From assembly GCA_030156535.1 (NCBI GenBank), contig JASGMJ010000003.1, positions 124,001 through 188,000 on the forward strand: DNA of 64,000 nt. The letters run 5' to 3'. Made by a program: the position numbers and the translations under genes. This DNA is from Candidatus Sumerlaeota bacterium (GTDB taxonomy: Bacteria; Sumerlaeota; Sumerlaeia; SLMS01; JAHLLQ01). Positions within the stretch are counted from its first letter, which is position 1. Every line of letters begins with the position of its first letter. Under the pieces are notes generated by a model. It made no database searches. It worked only from the letters and a program-made list of their open reading frames with translations, and was not told the DNA's origin. Positions 3,782 through 11,899 of this stretch are shown here, one piece after another.

Positions 3782-6040
3782 TTACTGGGGCGGTGGCAGG
3801 CGGGAGGGATCGAACGAACTGTCCTCGTCTTCATCCTCGTCGAAGGTGGGGACCTCGTACATGGCCGAGATTTGATCGGCCGAATCGGGCATCCTGATGC
3901 TCTCTTCATCCTCGTCCGCCTTGGCGGCGGTGACTCCGGGTTGAAGAACGGGAGAGGCGGCGCGCGGGCGAGGTTTCCACGGCAGGCCGGAAGGTTTCGG
4001 TGGGGCTTTGGGGGCGGGTGCCTGGGGAGCGGGAGGTGCCTGGGCCTCTTCGTCTTCGCCGACGGCTTCCCCGGCGTGCTCGAAATCGTCGTCGATCTCC
4101 GGGGAGGCGTCGGCGAGGCCTTCCTGCGTGCGCTGTTGCTTCACGGCCTCGCTGCTGCCCTCCTCGTCCTGGGAGATGACACCACTCTCGACAGAGCGCT
4201 GGCGGCTTTCCTCAAGTTTGCGGCTGAGGACGCGGGCGAGTTCCTCATTGGCTTCGTAGAGTTCGCAGACTTCCCTGATCTTCTCCTCGAGTTCGCTCAT
4301 CGTCCGCTCGTCCATGGCCTCCATGGCGAAGTCGAGACGGATCATGGATTCCTTGAGAATCCGCAGATCAGCTTCGGTGACGAGGTCGCCGAGCCCTTCG
4401 ATGAGCTTGTTGGCGCGGTCCTGAACGCGTTCGGCCTTCTGGCGGCGTTCGGCAAAGCGCATGAAGCGCTCGTCCTCGTCCAGATGCGTGGAGGCGGTCT
4501 GCACGAGGCGATCGACGATGTCGCGGCGCTGGCCGATTTCGCCGTAGTTTTCGACGACGACGCCGGTTTGCTGGCCGGTGCTCAGGTCGATCGCCGTAAC
4601 CGAAAGGATGCCGTTGGCGTCGATATTGAACTTCACTTCGATCTCGGGGAGTTCCTTGGGCGCCGGAGGAATGCCGACAAGGCGGAACTTCGCGAGCGAA
4701 TGGTTCTCCGAGGCCTTCTTGCGTTCGCCCTGCAGGACATGGACGACGACGCTGGCCTGATTGTCCACGACGGTGGTGAATTTGCGCGAGGCTTCGCAGG
4801 GAATGGTGGAGTTGCGCGTGATGAGTTCCTTGAAGACGCCGCCGGCGAGCTCGAGTCCCAGCGTGAGCGGTGTGACGTCGAGCAGAAGGACTTCGCGCAG
4901 GGCCCCGGTCATGACGCCCGCCTGAATCGCGGCGCCGAGCGCAACGGCCTCGTCCGGGTTGATCGAGCGGTTGGGCTCGCGTCCGAAGAACTCGGCAACG
5001 AGTTGCTGCACCTTGGGAATGCGCGAGGAGCCGCCCACGAGCAGGACTTCGTTGATGTTGTTGATCGTCAGGTTCGCATCGGCGAGCGCGCGGCGGCAGG
5101 GCTCGAAGAGGCGCTCGAGAATCGGCGTGATCATTTCCTCGAAGCGGTCGCGGGTCAGCGACATCTCGAAGTGCTTGGGCCCCGTGGAGTCGGCAACGAC
5201 GAAGGGGAGCGAGATGGTCGTCTCCTTCATCGTGGAAAGCTCGCACTTCGTCTTTTCCGCGGCCTCGCGGATGCGCTGGACGGCCTTGGAATCCAGCGTG
5301 GGGTCGATGCCGGTGGACTGAAGAATACCGTCGCAGATTTCCTGGAAAATGATGTGATCGACGTCGTCGCCGCCCAAGCGGTTGTCGCCGTTGGTGGAGA
5401 GAACCTCGAAGATGTCGTTGGAGATTTGCAGAATGGAAATATCGAACGTGCCGCCGCCGAAGTCGAAGACGGCAACGGTGCCCGCAGAGTCGGCCGTGCC
5501 GACGCCATAGGCCAGGGCGGCGGCGGTTGGCTCGTTGATAACGCGCTGGACTTCGAGGCCGGCCATTTCGGCGGCAGCCTTGGTGGCCGTGCGCTGCTGG
5601 TCGTTGAAGTGGGCAGGCACCGTGATGACGGCGCTGGTAACTTCCTCGCCGAGGAACTCTTCGGCAGTCAGGCGCAAACGCTCGAGGATGTCGGCCGAGA
5701 CTTCCTCGGGGCGCATCAGGGCCCCGCCGCCGATCTCCACGCCAGCCATGCCGTCGTCGAGTTCCACGGTGTGGAAGGGAAGGTCTTCGGCTTCTTCGCC
5801 GAGTTCGACGAAGCGCTTGCCGACGATTCGCTTGACCGAGCGGATGCAGCGCTCGGGCTCCAGGAGGAGCTGGCGCTTGGCGAGCTCGCCGACGATGATT
5901 TCTTCGTCACCCTTGTAGAAGACCACCGATGGAGTCAGCTTCGATCCCTCGGGGTTCGTGATGCTCTCCGCGCGGTCGCCTTCGATAAAGGCAACCACCG
6001 AGTTCGTCGTGCCGAGGTCGATTCCGATTGTTCGGGACAT
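3782..6040 (-). CDS. Hsp70/DnaK-like chaperone with long acidic, proline-rich C-terminal tail
   Basis: ATP-dependent protein folding chaperone. The nucleotide-binding domain begins with GIDLGTTNSVVAF and contains VPAHFNDQQRTATK, NEPTAAALAYG, FDFGGGTFDISI and LVGGSSRIPKVQ. The substrate-binding beta domain follows (LLLDVTPLTLGLE, with FNIDANGILSV). After a helical lid the last ~150 residues are low-complexity, rich in Asp/Glu and Pro, and end in PPPQ rather than an EEVD/EEKK-type tail. At 752 residues it is over 100 longer than standard DnaK (~640). It sits 30 bp downstream of a J-domain/TPR gene and has no GrpE neighbour. It is therefore more likely a specialised paralogue than the main DnaK. 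Confidence 0.93.
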   Translation of the reverse strand: MSRTIGIDLGTTNSVVAFIEGDRAESITNPEGSKLTPSVVFYKGDEEIIVGELAKRQLLLEPERCIRSVKRIVGKRFVELGEEAEDLPFHTVELDDGMAGVEIGGGALMRPEEVSADILERLRLTAEEFLGEEVTSAVITVPAHFNDQQRTATKAAAEMAGLEVQRVINEPTAAALAYGVGTADSAGTVAVFDFGGGTFDISILQISNDIFEVLSTNGDNRLGGDDVDHIIFQEICDGILQSTGIDPTLDSKAVQRIREAAEKTKCELSTMKETTISLPFVVADSTGPKHFEMSLTRDRFEEMITPILERLFEPCRRALADANLTINNINEVLLVGGSSRIPKVQQLVAEFFGREPNRSINPDEAVALGAAIQAGVMTGALREVLLLDVTPLTLGLELAGGVFKELITRNSTIPCEASRKFTTVVDNQASVVVHVLQGERKKASENHSLAKFRLVGIPPAPKELPEIEVKFNIDANGILSVTAIDLSTGQQTGVVVENYGEIGQRRDIVDRLVQTASTHLDEDERFMRFAERRQKAERVQDRANKLIEGLGDLVTEADLRILKESMIRLDFAMEAMDERTMSELEEKIREVCELYEANEELARVLSRKLEESRQRSVESGVISQDEEGSSEAVKQQRTQEGLADASPEIDDDFEHAGEAVGEDEEAQAPPAPQAPAPKAPPKPSGLPWKPRPRAASPVLQPGVTAAKADEDEESIRMPDSADQISAMYEVPTFDEDEDEDSSFDPSRLPPPQ

Positions 6041-6070
6041 CGCTGGTTCACTTGGGGGTTTGGATGGGGG

Positions 6071-6916
6071 TTACTTCTTTTTGCTGAACATCGCCACAAT
6101 CTTGTCAAGTACCCCTTTGGCCCCACCACCCCCGCCTGAATTCCCGAGCAACTGAAGGCGGTTCTTTGCCTCGCGATTCGTGGCATCCCAGCGAAGGACA
6201 TCCTCGTAGATTTCCTTCGCCTTGCTGTTCACGCCAGCCTGTTCGTAGACGTCGCCGAGTGCGAGCTTGAATTCCAGGTTGTAGGGGTCAAGCTGGCAGG
6301 CCATTTCGGCATGCTCGGCGGCCTTGGTGAAGCTGCCTTTTGTGCGCATCAGGCATTGGGCGTACTTGAGGTGGTACTGGGGTTCGGATTCCGGGTCGTT
6401 CTGGACGGTCACCTCGAAAAAGTTCAGGGCCTGCTTGTAGTCGGCCACCTTGAAGTACTGCATGCCTTTGACGAAGGCCTTCTGGGCCATCGACTTCTTC
6501 TGCTGGTAGACGGCGTTCTGGCGCTTGGAGGCTTCCTCGGGATTCTGTTCGCCGTCGGGAATTCCCGAAACAGTGGCCATGCCCGTGGACCTGCCGGTGC
6601 TGTCCTGGCGCTTGCCGGGACGGCGGATCGGCGTGGCGGAACTGACGGACCCCGAAGAAGAGGAAGCGTCGCTGTTCGTGGCGGTCTTGCCGCGAATCTG
6701 CTGGTCGTACTCCGCCCGTTTGCGCGGGTCTTTCAGAGTGTTGTAGGCCTTGGAAATCGCGGCGAGCTTGCTCGCGTTCGTGGCACGCTCATCCTCATCC
6801 TTCGCCTTGTCAGGGTGAAGCTTGCGGGCCAGCTCGTAATAGGCCTTCTTGATTTCGCGTTCAGGTGCATCCCGCGAAATATTCAAGAGACGATAATAAT
6901 CCAGTTCGCTACTCAT
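6071..6916 (-). CDS. J-domain protein with C-terminal TPR repeats
   Basis: A co-chaperone likely to stimulate the ATPase of the adjacent Hsp70. Residues 6-70 form a J domain (LDYYRLLNISRDA) with the essential HPD tripeptide at residues 34-36. A Ser/Thr/Gly-rich linker follows. Residues ~150-265 are helical with TPR-like periodicity (AFVKGMQYFKVADYKQALNFF, PQYHLKYAQCLMRTKGSFTKAAEHA, FKLALGDVYEQAGVNSKAKEIY). The zinc-finger and CTD domains of classical DnaJ are absent. I chose the ATG beginning MSSELDYY because the J domain begins immediately after it; an upstream in-frame ATG would add 18 unlikely residues. The next gene (Hsp70) starts 30 bp downstream. Confidence 0.88.
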   Translation of the reverse strand: MSSELDYYRLLNISRDAPEREIKKAYYELARKLHPDKAKDEDERATNASKLAAISKAYNTLKDPRKRAEYDQQIRGKTATNSDASSSSGSVSSATPIRRPGKRQDSTGRSTGMATVSGIPDGEQNPEEASKRQNAVYQQKKSMAQKAFVKGMQYFKVADYKQALNFFEVTVQNDPESEPQYHLKYAQCLMRTKGSFTKAAEHAEMACQLDPYNLEFKLALGDVYEQAGVNSKAKEIYEDVLRWDATNREAKNRLQLLGNSGGGGGAKGVLDKIVAMFSKKK

Positions 6917-7253: not shown

Positions 7254-7571
7254 ATGTCCGACATCACGCGCAAGACCGAAGCCCGGGCAGGGATCCTCAA
7301 GGCGATGGCACACCCCGCCCGCCTCTTTATGATGGAAGAGTTGGCAAAAGGCGAGCGCTGCGTCTGTGAGTTGCGCGAGATGGTGGGGAGTGATCTCTCG
7401 ACGGTCTCCAAGCACCTCTCCGTTCTCCGCAATGCCGGGCTCGTGGAAATGGACAAGCGCGGGCCGCAGGTCTTCTACAGCCTGAAGACCCCGTGCATTC
7501 TCAAGTTTGTGGACTGCATCGACGCTGTGGTAAGGTCGAACGCAGAGAAGCACATGGAGTTGGTCAAGTGA
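7254..7571 (+). CDS. arsR: ArsR/SmtB-family metalloregulatory repressor
   Basis: A winged-helix repressor that leaves DNA when it binds thiophilic metal(loid)s such as As(III). The 105 residues contain the DNA-recognition helix VGSDLSTVSKHLSVLRNAGLV. Cys36 and Cys38 lie in ERCVCEL at the start of the recognition region, in the position of the alpha-3 metal box (ELCVCDL) of E. coli ArsR. Two further cysteines, Cys81 and Cys88, lie near the C-terminus and could complete a trithiolate site. The ATG at 7254 has an AAAGGAG ribosome site seven bases upstream, which favours it over an upstream in-frame ATG. Its stop overlaps the GTG start of the permease gene. Confidence 0.92.
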   Translation: MSDITRKTEARAGILKAMAHPARLFMMEELAKGERCVCELREMVGSDLSTVSKHLSVLRNAGLVEMDKRGPQVFYSLKTPCILKFVDCIDAVVRSNAEKHMELVK

Positions 7572-8965
7572 ACGCGAAATCTCCCACCCCTTTTTTGGAC
7601 AATAGCTTGGCGAATGAGCCAATCCGCCAAGAGCCTGCGCTGCCATGGCGCGAACGCCTGGGGGGACTCTTCAGCACGGAAGGCAAGATCCTCCTCGCAC
7701 TGATCACCGTCTTCCTCGTGGCATACTTCCTCCCCATTGATCAGGCGCGATTCAACAACGCAGTGCACGAATCGTTGGCGCTGACGAAGTGGTACGCGCA
7801 GGAACACGTGCTGCTCTGCCTGATCCCGGCATTCTTCATTGCCGGGGCGATCGGGGCGTTCGTCAGCCAGGGCGCCGTGATGAAGTACCTGGGTGCGCAG
7901 GCGAACAAGTTCGTGGCCTACGGCGTGGCGTCGACGAGCGGGACGCTGCTCGCGGTCTGCTCGTGCACCGTGCTGCCGCTCTTCGCGGGCATCTGGAAGC
8001 GCGGTGCGGGGCTCGGTCCGGCGGCGGCGTTCCTGTACAGCGGCCCTGCGATCAACATCCTGGCGATCATCCTGACGGCGCGGGTTCTTGGTATCGAACT
8101 GGGCGTGGCGCGGGCCCTCTTCGCCATTTCCTTCAGTGTGATCATCGGCATCGTCATGGCCATGCTCTTCGCGAAGGAAGAAGCGCAGAAGGCCGCCGAG
8201 GCCGCCAAGCAACCGCCAATCCCGGAGAGCCGGCCGCTCTGGCAAACGGCCACGATGCTGGCGGCGATGACCGGCATTCTGATCTTCGCCAACTGGGGAC
8301 ATCCGGCGGAGCAGTCGGGCCTCTGGTACGTCATCTGGTCGTGGCGCTGGGTCGTGACGGCGGGCTTTGCGCTCGTGCTGGCGGCGGGACTGCATCTCTT
8401 CCACACCGTGCGGCTTGTCGAGGTCATCGCCTCCATCGTCATCGTCGGGGCGTTGGCTCTGGCCTTTCCCGCTTTCCCGCTGATCCCCTTCGTCGCTGGC
8501 GTCATCGCGCTGGCGCTGATGGCGACGAGCGGGAACGAGGAGCTTTCCGACTGGCTGAGTCAGACGTGGGACTTCACGAAGAAGATCCTGCCGCTGCTGC
8601 TCGCGGGTGTCATCGTCGCCGGTCTGCTGCTGGGCCGCCCGGGGCATGAAGGTCTGATTCCGTCGGCCTGGGTGGAGAGTGCCCTCGGAGGCAACTCCTT
8701 CGGCGCCAACGTTTTCGCCTCGGTTGCCGGAGCGCTCATGTACTTCGCGACGCTCACCGAGGTGCCGATCCTCCAGGGCCTGCTCGGCGCGGGCATGGGA
8801 CAGGGCCCCGCGCTGGCGCTGCTCCTTGCGGGTCCGGCACTTTCCCTTCCCAACATGATCGTCATCCGCAGCGTGATGGGCACGAAGAAGACCCTCGTCT
8901 TCATCGGCCTCGTCGTCGTGCTGGCAACCATCAGTGGCCTCCTGTACGGGGCCATGTTTACCTGA
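7568..8965 (+). CDS. Permease of the YraQ/ArsP (DUF318) family
   Basis: A polytopic inner-membrane permease of 465 residues with about ten hydrophobic segments. The central box GVASTSGTLLAVCSCTVLPLFAGIW with the CSC cysteine motif is typical of the UPF0718/DUF318 family, which includes the organoarsenical exporter ArsP. A second half repeats the fold (SVAGALMYFATLTEVPILQGLLG, GPALSLPNMIVIRSVMG). The GTG start at 7568 overlaps the arsR stop in a GTGA junction and has GGAG seven bases upstream. Given its neighbours it probably exports trivalent, perhaps methylated or aromatic, arsenicals; other members move different substrates, so the cargo is inferred. Confidence 0.88.
   Translation: MNAKSPTPFLDNSLANEPIRQEPALPWRERLGGLFSTEGKILLALITVFLVAYFLPIDQARFNNAVHESLALTKWYAQEHVLLCLIPAFFIAGAIGAFVSQGAVMKYLGAQANKFVAYGVASTSGTLLAVCSCTVLPLFAGIWKRGAGLGPAAAFLYSGPAINILAIILTARVLGIELGVARALFAISFSVIIGIVMAMLFAKEEAQKAAEAAKQPPIPESRPLWQTATMLAAMTGILIFANWGHPAEQSGLWYVIWSWRWVVTAGFALVLAAGLHLFHTVRLVEVIASIVIVGALALAFPAFPLIPFVAGVIALALMATSGNEELSDWLSQTWDFTKKILPLLLAGVIVAGLLLGRPGHEGLIPSAWVESALGGNSFGANVFASVAGALMYFATLTEVPILQGLLGAGMGQGPALALLLAGPALSLPNMIVIRSVMGTKKTLVFIGLVVVLATISGLLYGAMFT
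7607..7622. promoter_or_regulatory. Second palindrome, TTGGC-N6-GCCAA, within the permease start region
   Basis: A 5+5 inverted repeat whose arms resemble those of the 7204-7221 palindrome (TTGGCC/GGCCAA). It lies inside the first codons of the permease gene. It could be an auxiliary ArsR site or a chance match; it is short. Confidence 0.25.
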
Positions 8966-8993: not shown

Positions 8994-9227
8994 ATGAAGA
9001 AGCTACAGATCCTGGGCACCGGGTGCCCCAAGTGCAAGAAGCTCACCGAGATGACCGAGGCCGCCGCGAAGGAAGCGGGCATCGAGTACGAGCTGGAGAA
9101 AGTTACCGACATCAACGACATCGTGGCGTTTGGCGTGATGACGACGCCCGCGCTGGTTGTCGATGGCGAGGTCAAGGTTGCGGGCAAGCTGCCCACGGCA
9201 AGCGAACTCCAGACGATGCTTGGTTGA
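8994..9227 (+). CDS. Small thioredoxin-like redox protein (CPKC)
   Basis: A 77-residue protein of the redox-active disulfide protein 2 type. It has an N-terminal beta strand followed by the active site GTGCPKCKK (Cys11, Cys14) and the thioredoxin cis-proline segment VMTTPALVVDGEV. It is cytoplasmic, with no signal sequence. A strong AAGGAG sits nine bases before the ATG at 8994, deciding the start. In ars-type operons of this layout it occupies the position of a small CxxC protein, and may supply electrons or hand metal(loid) thiolates to the transporter. That role is inferred from context. Confidence 0.88.
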   Translation: MKKLQILGTGCPKCKKLTEMTEAAAKEAGIEYELEKVTDINDIVAFGVMTTPALVVDGEVKVAGKLPTASELQTMLG

Positions 9228-9237
9228 GGAGCCGGCT

Positions 9238-9738
9238 ATGAAGTCCAAAGTGATCGTTACCTCCGCGCTGCTTCTCTTCGTCGGTATCAGTCTGGCTGCC
9301 ATTGTGGTGAAGGAGATGGGGCGCGAGTCCGCACCTGTCGCCGCACCCGAAACAGCATCCCCACCTGATGCGGCCGTGCAGGCGCAGGAGGAAGGCCGCT
9401 ACGTCGTCTACTACTTCCACGGCGATGTGCGCTGCCAGACCTGCCAGACCATCGAGCAGCAATCCCACGACGCCATCGCCACGATGTTCGCCGACCAGCT
9501 TGATTCCGGCGAGTTGGAATGGCGTCTCGTCAACTACGACAAGCCGGAAAACGCCCACTTCCGCGATGACTTCCAGCTCGCCTTCCAGTCCGTCGTCGTT
9601 GCCGAAGAGCGTGACGGCAGGATCGTCCGCTGGAAGAACCTCGCGGACGTCTGGACGAAAGTCCACGATACCCCTCAGGAGTTCGAGGAGTACGTGGTGG
9701 ATAGCACCGCCAGCTTTATGGCGGGCGGCGCGTCATGA
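9238..9738 (+). CDS. arsF: ArsF-like membrane-anchored CxxC protein
   Basis: A 166-residue protein with an uncleaved-looking N-terminal membrane segment (residues 5-24) and an Ala/Pro-rich linker. Its extracytoplasmic domain opens with VVYYFHGDVRCQTCQTIE (Cys66, Cys69). This layout matches the family named nitrophenyl compound nitroreductase subunit ArsF, found in arsEFG-type operons linked to aromatic arsenical resistance. It starts 10 bp after the mini-thioredoxin and overlaps the next gene by four bases (ATGA). The thioredoxin-like fold with a CxxC is visible; nitroreductase activity itself is not demonstrable from sequence. Confidence 0.82.
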   Translation: MKSKVIVTSALLLFVGISLAAIVVKEMGRESAPVAAPETASPPDAAVQAQEEGRYVVYYFHGDVRCQTCQTIEQQSHDAIATMFADQLDSGELEWRLVNYDKPENAHFRDDFQLAFQSVVVAEERDGRIVRWKNLADVWTKVHDTPQEFEEYVVDSTASFMAGGAS

Positions 9739-10424
9739 ACGAATGGCTTCTGGGGGCGGGTACGGCGCTCTGGCTCGGCATCCTCACGTCGATCAGTCCG
9801 TGCCCGCTTGCCACGAACATCGCGGCCGTGTCCTACATCTCGCGCCGCGTGGAGAAGACGCGCCTGGCGGTGTTCTCAGGGTTGCTCTACACAGCCGGAC
9901 GCACGCTCACCTATCTTGCGCTTGGCGTCGTGCTTTCGGCCAGCCTCCTTGCCGTGCCTCAGCTTTCGCACTTCCTCCAGAAATACATGAACAAGCTCAT
10001 GGGGCCGCTGCTGATCCTCGTTGGGATGTTCCTGCTGGAGCTCTTGTCGCTTCCGACGAGTTCCGGATCCGGCTGGGGGCAGAAGATGCAGGCGCACGCG
10101 GACAAGCTCGGCGTGTGGGGCGCCGGCCTGCTCGGCATCGTCTTCGCGCTTTCGTTCTGCCCCACATCGGCGGCGCTCTTCTTCGGCAGCCTCCTACCCC
10201 TCACGATGAAGAGCGGCTCCTCTGTCATCTATCCGGGCCTTTACGGCATCGGCACGGCTCTGCCTGTGCTCGGGTTTGCGCTCGTGATTGCGTTCGGGGC
10301 GAAGGGCCTGGGCGCAGCCTTCAAGCGGGTCAGCACGTTTGAGCTATGGGCCCGCCGCATCACCGGCGGCCTCTTCATCGCCATCGGTGTGTGGATGAGC
10401 GTGCGGTTCATCCTGATGGCTTGA
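9735..10424 (+). CDS. arsG: ArsG-like / CcdA-type membrane permease
   Basis: A 229-residue integral membrane protein with six predicted helices. It carries the conserved cysteines of the DsbD/CcdA family: Cys23 in TSISPCPLATN and Cys142 in LSFCPTSAAL. The SPCPLATNIAA signature is characteristic of the ArsG subgroup annotated as aromatic aminobenzylarsenical efflux permeases. Its start overlaps the arsF stop, suggesting translational coupling and a joint membrane complex. It could either export arsenicals or pass electrons across the membrane to the ArsF CxxC, as CcdA does. The two roles cannot be separated here. Confidence 0.82.
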   Translation: MNEWLLGAGTALWLGILTSISPCPLATNIAAVSYISRRVEKTRLAVFSGLLYTAGRTLTYLALGVVLSASLLAVPQLSHFLQKYMNKLMGPLLILVGMFLLELLSLPTSSGSGWGQKMQAHADKLGVWGAGLLGIVFALSFCPTSAALFFGSLLPLTMKSGSSVIYPGLYGIGTALPVLGFALVIAFGAKGLGAAFKRVSTFELWARRITGGLFIAIGVWMSVRFILMA

Positions 10425-10564: not shown

Positions 10565-11899
10565 ATGAAAGCGATGATCCGCACCGCTCTACTCGTATCT
10601 CTGACAACCGCCTCCGCCGTGGCCCAGCACGAGGGGTATCCGTCACCGCTTGGCCTCTACTGCAGTTGCCCACCCACCAATGCTCTCAGTTCCTCCGCGC
10701 TGCCCGACGTGATCGACAAGGACTACGTTCACGGAGTTCTTGTGCGTGTCGCCTGGTCGGACTTGGCGCCACAGCCGGGTGTGTACAACTGGGAATTGAT
10801 TGATGAGCAGCTGACGCTGTTGGAGGAAGCGGGAAAAACCGGATGCCTTGCCGTAATCAACGGGCGCTACTATCCGTCGTGGCTGGAGGAGGACCCGGCG
10901 TTCGAGACCTTCCATTATCTGTTTCGCGGCACCGAGGATGTCAGCATACCCGTGCCGTGGAACGAGGCCTACCTCCAGGCTTGGAAGGAGACCATTGCCG
11001 CGCTGGGCCAGCGATATGACAACCATCCGAGTCTGCGCTTGATTCGGATCACTCATGCAACTTCGAACGGCATGGAATTCCAACTGCCTCAAACGCCGAG
11101 CGACATCGCCAACTGGACGGAGGCAGAATACAGCCATTCCCGTCATCTTGCTTCCTGGGTGGAAGTCGTTGATGCTTTCGGACTGGCGTTCCCCACCATG
11201 CCTCTCGATCTGGACTTTCACCCGGTCAACATCACGCAGAGCACCGAGGGCTTTGACGAGGATACGCTCTCCGAAGAGGTTTACCAATATGCGGTCACGC
11301 AAATGGGTCCCCGGTTTGGAGCGCTCGCCGCCTGGTGGAGTCGGAAAAACTCGAGCGTGTACTCTGGCCAATACAAGATCATGCAACAAAGCGAAGAGCG
11401 TGCTTTCGCCACGACTCAGTTCGTGGGCAGTTCTCACGACCACTGGGAAAGCCGCTTCGATGCTGCTTCGCCATTCGACGCGGCGGTGGACACGCTTGAA
11501 TTCACTCTTGATGAAAATGGCATCCGATATCTGGAGCTTTGGAATGCCGATTTGGTGGCGCCGGACGATGCCATGCGCGAGTTGCTGGAGGATTACGCGG
11601 CACAGGTTTCTCCGCCGCAACCGCCAACCGGCCTGGCAGTCACTGCCACGGAAGACAGAGCCACGCTCAATTGGGAAGGCACGGCAGAAGCCATCACCTA
11701 CAATGTATACAAGAGGGATGATCAAGGTGTGCCCGTGTTGATTTCCCCCGGGCAAACAGCCACCCACTATCAAGAGGATACCGACGGCTTCCCTGGCACT
11801 TACGCCATCACGGCAGTCGATTCGGAGGGACGCGAATCCTGGTTCTCCGAGTTCGTTTCGGCTGAGGCCCAAGTGGCAGATCTGTGGCTCTTCTTCTAG
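10565..11899 (+). CDS. Secreted TIM-barrel glycosidase-like protein with C-terminal FN3 domain
   Basis: A 444-residue exported protein with a Sec signal peptide ending near residue 20 (SAVAQ). Residues ~30-330 resemble the catalytic barrel of GH42/GH-A-like enzymes: GVLVRVAWSDLAPQPGVYNW, EEAGKTGCLAVINGRYYP, HPSLRLIRITHAT and YLELWNADL in the expected order. Residues ~350-440 form a fibronectin type III-like domain (PPTGLAVTATEDRATLNW). No confident acid/base pair can be named, so activity is open. Its DNA is visibly less GC-rich than its neighbours (a sampled 60 bp is ~52% GC), consistent with later acquisition. It is preceded by AGTCCTTCTG with only a weak ribosome site. Confidence 0.6.
   Translation: MKAMIRTALLVSLTTASAVAQHEGYPSPLGLYCSCPPTNALSSSALPDVIDKDYVHGVLVRVAWSDLAPQPGVYNWELIDEQLTLLEEAGKTGCLAVINGRYYPSWLEEDPAFETFHYLFRGTEDVSIPVPWNEAYLQAWKETIAALGQRYDNHPSLRLIRITHATSNGMEFQLPQTPSDIANWTEAEYSHSRHLASWVEVVDAFGLAFPTMPLDLDFHPVNITQSTEGFDEDTLSEEVYQYAVTQMGPRFGALAAWWSRKNSSVYSGQYKIMQQSEERAFATTQFVGSSHDHWESRFDAASPFDAAVDTLEFTLDENGIRYLELWNADLVAPDDAMRELLEDYAAQVSPPQPPTGLAVTATEDRATLNWEGTAEAITYNVYKRDDQGVPVLISPGQTATHYQEDTDGFPGTYAITAVDSEGRESWFSEFVSAEAQVADLWLFF

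Follow-up and report, generated by a model that had tools for sequence, protein, structure and literature searches.

The window analysed here, a stretch of 64,000 nucleotides from a Candidatus Sumerlaeota genome, carries five genes on its forward strand between 7254 and 10424, in the order arsR, ArsP-type permease, arsE, arsF and arsG (Table 1), an order that recurs across many phyla. All five pass curated family cut-offs, the permease in Pfam only and ArsF in NCBIfam only, and arsF and arsG overlap by four bases. The arsR product is an ArsR/SmtB-type repressor with a CVCEL motif, and inspection of the sequence by eye places its start at the ATG at 7254, which has AGGAG ahead of it. As no more than half of the ArsR-like proteins counted (30 of 60) have its CxC motif, the presence of this motif in the repressor of the window is weak evidence of arsenic sensing. 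The open reading frame of the permease as listed begins at 7493, and the GTG at 7568 is our guess at its start. Past the operon, an open reading frame at 10565-11899 has a partial-length match to Glyco_hydro_42 (33.6 bits, cut-off 21). The NCBI naming models call the last two products “nitroreductase subunit ArsF” and “efflux permease ArsG”, and it is from its NCBIfam name that the export of aromatic aminoarsenicals by ArsG is taken.

Table 1. Genes of the arsenic operon, with positions in the window and family matches.
Gene	Position	Strand	Family matches and features
arsR	7254-7571	+	PF01022, 51.9 bits (cut-off 22); NF033788, 86 bits (cut-off 55); scanned from 7275
ArsP_1-type permease	7568-8965 (start a guess)	+	PF03773, 245.9 bits (cut-off 32.3)
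arsE	8994-9227	+	TIGR00412 (MTH895/ArsE), 107.5 bits (cut-off 62); 77 aa; CPKC
arsF	9238-9738	+	NF040494, 107.9 bits (cut-off 60), scanned from 9235; RCQTC
arsG	9735-10424	+	NF040495, 290.5 bits (cut-off 200); PF13386, 60 bits (cut-off 24.9); 229 aa

Relatives of ArsG were drawn from several sources. In the bacterium’s own class, 13 of the 39 genomes scanned had ArsG above the cut-off, its own genome counted. Three further phyla were sampled, and the corresponding figures, each with the central genome counted, were 14 of 246 for a sample centred on Rhodopirellula, 6 of 247 for one centred on Bacteroidetes/Chlorobi, and 2 of 349 for one centred on a contig labelled Alphaproteobacteria. From named genome contigs we used 80 ArsG loci out of at least 584 confirmed, and the closest named relative among the matches listed, in a Candidatus Sumerlaeia genome bin, is 85% identical. 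The viral collection (IMG/VR) gave a single locus (L111), with an arsF fragment at the contig end followed by arsG. In total, 147 sequences matched the ArsG profile, and 134 of these were distinct: 111 scored at least 200 bits, six ArsG-like sequences scored 60-200 bits, and the other 17 were 16 CcdA/DsbD relatives and one ArsG fragment. DsbD_2-like relatives of ArsG also occur on plasmids of Bacillales and Deinococcota, where most are labelled sulfite exporter TauE/SafE, a label that is possibly misleading.

The flanks of the 111 full-scoring ArsG genes contain ArsF in 109 cases (including three fragments that lack the CxxC part) and ArsE in 99. Of the 12 loci without ArsE, ten are situated at the end of a contig or have little flanking sequence, and in the other two (L059 and L071) ArsE was not found despite about 5 kb of upstream flank. 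At L071, a rhodanese domain follows arsG at about 5807-6100 and weakly resembles TsoB, a rhodanese/DsbD fusion-like selenoprotein (39 bits, far below the cut-off). A plasmid of Prevotella carries arsF, arsG, a thioredoxin gene, the permease, arsC and ACR3 consecutively. Outside the operon, the genome to which the window belongs has ACR3 and an arsenite methyltransferase. It also has a DsbD-like open reading frame of 730 aa, so ArsG need not serve as a housekeeping carrier.

The central observation concerns two cysteines of ArsG. An earlier note on this DNA, made from the sequence alone, had placed Cys23 and Cys142 at equivalent positions of two repeats, “exactly as in” the electron carriers CcdA and DsbD. 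Both residues are where the note put them (SISPCPLA and LSFCPTSA), and their equivalence is borne out by hhalign, which pairs C23 with C142 when the profile of the N-terminal half is compared with that of the C-terminal half (E 2.2e-5 for a single comparison, probability 76.5%). As a control, the reversed C-terminal half gave E 0.11 across 7 columns only. Scored by alignment columns, both cysteines occur in every one of the 111 distinct ArsG at or above 200 bits, of which 79 came from peptide-pattern scans (one pattern included Cys23) and 32 from profile searches. Among the six ArsG-like sequences of 60-200 bits, the four that are complete at both sites (L135, L137, L139 and L140) have both cysteines, and the other two have a gap at one of the sites. 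Each of those four loci also has an ArsF-like sequence with CxxC, that of L140 scoring only 26 bits. The one fragment, at L016 (contig G037:C187), follows ArsE and ArsF and covers only ArsG residues 175-227, with neither cysteine; either the gene has decayed or the assembly is at fault here.

The wording “exactly as in CcdA” holds for one cysteine and not for the other. Cys23 aligns with the CcdA cysteine, whereas Cys142 falls two positions early, both against CcdA itself (PDB 5vkv) and, as aligned, against 16 DsbD/CcdA-like relatives from the fetched loci. The second site reads C-P in ArsG and P-C in CcdA, with the neighbouring prolines aligned. Because of this shift in register, none of the 16 CcdA/DsbD relatives has a cysteine at the column of the second ArsG cysteine, and with the ArsG piece of L016 added the count is 0 of 17. 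By sequence alignment, ArsG does not put its second cysteine in the very column that CcdA uses, C142 lying two columns before it; that column is no requirement of the curated family.

Family and fold both place ArsG near CcdA. The PF13386 match (DsbD_2, CcdA family) spans profile positions 1-199 of 199, and in a search of the ArsG profile against the PDB, CcdA 5vkv was the sole sequence at E 0.1 or lower (E 6.4e-5). The structure model (pLDDT 88.9, pTM 0.81) describes a membrane protein of predicted six helices, in which Cys23 and Cys142 lie at or beside helix breaks (helices 2-20/22-36 and 128-139/143-160). Foldseek again put CcdA 5vkv first (probability 1.00, E 7e-3, TM about 0.5), with no match at E 0.001 or lower. 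With VIA-align, CcdA came eighth at Z 6.9, a weak value for helical proteins, over 193 residues with an rmsd of 4.4. Subunits of the NqrE/RnfA type (NqrE, Rnf) scored above it at Z 7.2 to 8.3, and the best of these, at a Z of 8.3 that is middling for helical proteins, covered 156 residues with an rmsd of 5.4. NqrE and Rnf subunits have inverted repeats with membrane cysteines, and it is possible that cysteine-based membrane electron carriers, ArsG/CcdA and NqrE/Rnf alike, share an architecture. Positive charge (mean K+R) is concentrated in the ArsG loops 1-2, 3-4 and 5-6 (2.6, 3.5 and 4.4), compared to 0.2 and 0.7 in loops 2-3 and 4-5, and both ends are therefore predicted to be periplasmic (N-out/C-out), which is the topology of CcdA.

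Two further dithiol proteins complete the set. The earlier note had named a cytoplasmic CPKC protein and a periplasmic ArsF-like protein with CxxC as partners of ArsG, and both are found in the operon, the latter with CQTC. ArsE is thioredoxin-like, with no evident membrane segment and with proline 52 at the place of the cis-proline of thioredoxins; its CxxC and P52 are each conserved in 106 of 106 aligned sequences. ArsF has an N-terminal membrane anchor followed by a thioredoxin-like domain, and a hydrophobic segment precedes the CxxC in 125 of 127 ArsF (a count that includes duplicates). In the ArsF alignment, CxxC is present in 115 of 115 and an arginine directly before it in 113. For both conservation sets, distinct sequences that exceeded fixed scores and lengths were taken and the window, which recurs as L001, was added; 2 of 117 ArsE matches, each a fragment, were left out, as were fragmentary or low-scoring ArsF, and L067 was kept. 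As judged from this conserved CxxC and from the modelled ArsF domain of a natural fusion (L124), which has a thioredoxin fold (Z about 10, 92 residues, rmsd 2.4), ArsF is thioredoxin-like.

Two natural fusions, each a single case in a draft genome, bear on how the three proteins are arranged. In a Lentisphaeria bin (L067), ArsE, one transmembrane segment and ArsF form a single open reading frame, and both domains score above their NCBIfam cut-offs. In a genome of the Rhodopirellula-centred sample (L124), ArsF and ArsG are joined in one open reading frame; here ArsG is above its cut-off, and ArsF reaches 46.9 bits against a cut-off of 60 but has an RCENC motif in addition to the thioredoxin fold. 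Across the L124 junction the shared frame is free of stops and none of the frames contains an ATG, and when the fusion is aligned with ten read-through rows, the ArsF and ArsG motifs both match up. Between them, the fusions tie ArsE to ArsF and ArsF to ArsG, and they point to opposite sides of the membrane for ArsE and ArsF. They agree with the loop charges, which likewise would place ArsE inside, ArsF outside and ArsG between them.

Given this anatomy, we propose a dedicated thiol relay through the inner membrane, made up of ArsE, ArsG and ArsF. The cell’s thioredoxin system would keep the CPKC of cytosolic ArsE reduced, and ArsE would pass electrons to the Cys23/Cys142 pair of ArsG. In the manner of CcdA and DsbD, ArsG would turn this pair toward the periplasm and reduce the CQTC of membrane-anchored ArsF. 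The electrons of ArsF would then go to a small arsenic-linked substrate rather than to unfolded proteins, candidates being an arsenical, either pentavalent or nitro-aromatic, and a thiol on the neighbouring permease, and export itself would be the job of the ArsP-type permease. The sequences support three conserved dithiols, in a predicted order of cytosol, membrane and outside, in an arsenic context; that electrons flow, in which direction, from where and to what substrate is what we infer from them. The earlier note’s idea of an electron conduit is thus supported in its anatomy by family, fold, invariant cysteines, predicted topology, gene order and the two fusions, and we hold a thiol relay that leads out of the cytosol into the periplasm to be the best reading of that anatomy, and a probable one. 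When an arsenic-linked target is added to the relay our confidence is lower, and we lean only slightly toward the combination. The note’s further suggestion, that the operon could reduce arsenicals outside the cell rather than (or as well as) export them, is a conjecture that goes beyond this anatomy. Several results count against the relay: the lack of a cis-proline in ArsF, the register shift of Cys142, the modest fold scores, the two loci without ArsE, the ArsG piece at L016, and the efflux role for which ArsG has been cited. A protein that databases present as an arsenic exporter thus resembles part of an electron chain to an outside thioredoxin-like protein, and if the relay is real, bacteria would have a dedicated means of acting on arsenic through thiols beyond the cytoplasm.

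On the other hand, ArsG could be what its name says, a true exporter of trivalent aromatic arsenicals whose intramembrane cysteines hold As(III), with ArsE and ArsF reducing the nitro group. The NCBIfam names of ArsF and ArsG speak for this, as does a published passage that cites ArsG among the efflux transporters of ars operons and has Chen et al. 2019 among its references, and a pair of close thiols suits trivalent arsenic. However, the family and fold evidence for ArsG indicates an electron carrier, a separate permease is present at 90 of the 111 loci, and ACR3 is present at L058, L067 and L071. In addition, the L067 fusion would put ArsE and ArsF on opposite sides of the membrane, which would be odd for subunits of one nitroreductase. 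The permease of the window has cysteines at 109, 156 and 158 (numbered from 7493) that are conserved in 58 of 58 aligned permeases, namely the window and 57 others at 480 bits or more, shorter and more distant ones being left out. These three cysteines are a possible site for trivalent arsenic, and the ArsP-type permease is likely the operon’s exporter. With such a permease encoded in the operon, its three cysteines invariant, export may well fall to a protein other than ArsG and there is no need of ArsG as exporter; we regard the exporter role as unlikely.

The main result that departs from a plain electron-conduit picture lies in ArsF. At its cis-proline column (117), which was assigned by sequence from the six proline-bearing ArsF and from ArsE, proline is found in only 6 of 115 sequences; 109, that of the window included, are without it, and K, S, Q or R stands there in 97. 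At column 118, proline is found in 0 of 115. Four loci carry arsF in tandem pairs (L032 3859-4979, L039 4027-4998, L055 3972-5001 and L133 273-1409), and five of the six proline-bearing ArsF come from such loci (both copies of L039 and of L133, and the second copy of L055), the sixth being at L104. The absence of the cis-proline is unusual for a thiol-disulfide oxidoreductase, and ArsF therefore probably differs from an ordinary thioredoxin, with a site that may be suited to an anion or a metalloid. Because 109 of 115 ArsF have no cis-proline and an arginine precedes the CxxC, ArsF may bind an arsenical instead of reducing one; as a sequence feature, the missing proline is as compatible with a site that binds metalloids or is otherwise specialised as with a reductase.

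It is in this light that a different use of the three dithiols has to be weighed, in which a trivalent (organo)arsenical and not electrons would pass by thiol exchange from ArsE to Cys23/Cys142 of ArsG and on to ArsF outside. To our knowledge there is no precedent in the CcdA family for a hand-off of arsenicals. Three dithiols in series would suit such a path, and ArsE weakly resembles the arsenic chaperone ArsD, but that match (15.7 bits, E 0.018) is under the cut-off of 27 bits. ArsF is without the cis-proline that may keep metals off the CxxC of thioredoxins (PMC2757866, with reference to Su et al. 2007), and the cited efflux role of ArsG points the same way. ArsE, however, keeps its proline in every aligned sequence, as normal disulfide reductases do, and we consider the passage of arsenicals along this path quite improbable. 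If it did occur, a CcdA-type protein would move a metalloid, and the reported efflux by ArsG would be reconciled with its CcdA anatomy. A further reading, suggested by Castillo and Saier, is that the relay serves the arsenate reductase ArsC; arsC is present in 7 of the 8 operons of their paper (PMC2963123) and in the Prevotella operon. We consider this very improbable, as ArsC is cytosolic, for which reason these authors themselves rate transmembrane electron flow less likely, and there is no arsC among the five operon genes here.

Compared to known systems, the proposed relay from ArsE through ArsG to ArsF is closest in its membrane part to CcdA and DsbD (PF13386, 5vkv), with which ArsG shares a six-helix internal repeat, one cysteine per half and an N-out/C-out charge pattern. 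It differs in its second cysteine (C-P, two positions earlier), in the presence of its own cytosolic donor, ArsE, in the operon, and in the arsenic context. The ArsEFG proteins that Chen, Zhang and Rosen are said to have described in 2019, with Shewanella putrefaciens as host and with roles in nitroreduction and efflux, belong to the same three families by the NCBIfam cut-offs, but here arsEFG sit after an ArsP-type permease. The published nitroreductase and efflux roles are also not what the anatomy most directly suggests here, and should ArsG indeed carry electrons and ArsF act as a dithiol protein of the periplasm, the NCBI names would mislead. The idea of a conduit is partly in print already. 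In 2010, Castillo and Saier described CcdA with a thioredoxin and a “redox-active disulfide protein 2” in eight instances of ars operons, tied these to ArsC and weighed an electron path (PMC2963123, section 3.9). Their trio is probably the same three genes as ArsEFG, TIGR00412 bearing the name redox_disulf_2; section 3.9 and the other passages concerned do not analyse cysteines, topology or fusions. In the open-licence literature we found no report of the fusions, of the invariance of the ArsG cysteines across phyla, or of the loss of the cis-proline in ArsF. For the step from ArsG to ArsF, the pneumococcal CcdA-Etrx system offers a precedent: in the part of its description that bears on this, CcdA feeds a membrane-anchored, thioredoxin-like protein that is encoded adjacently and lies outside the membrane, as we propose for ArsF, whereas its endpoint is methionine sulfoxide reductase and its donor the general TrxA (PMC3914529).
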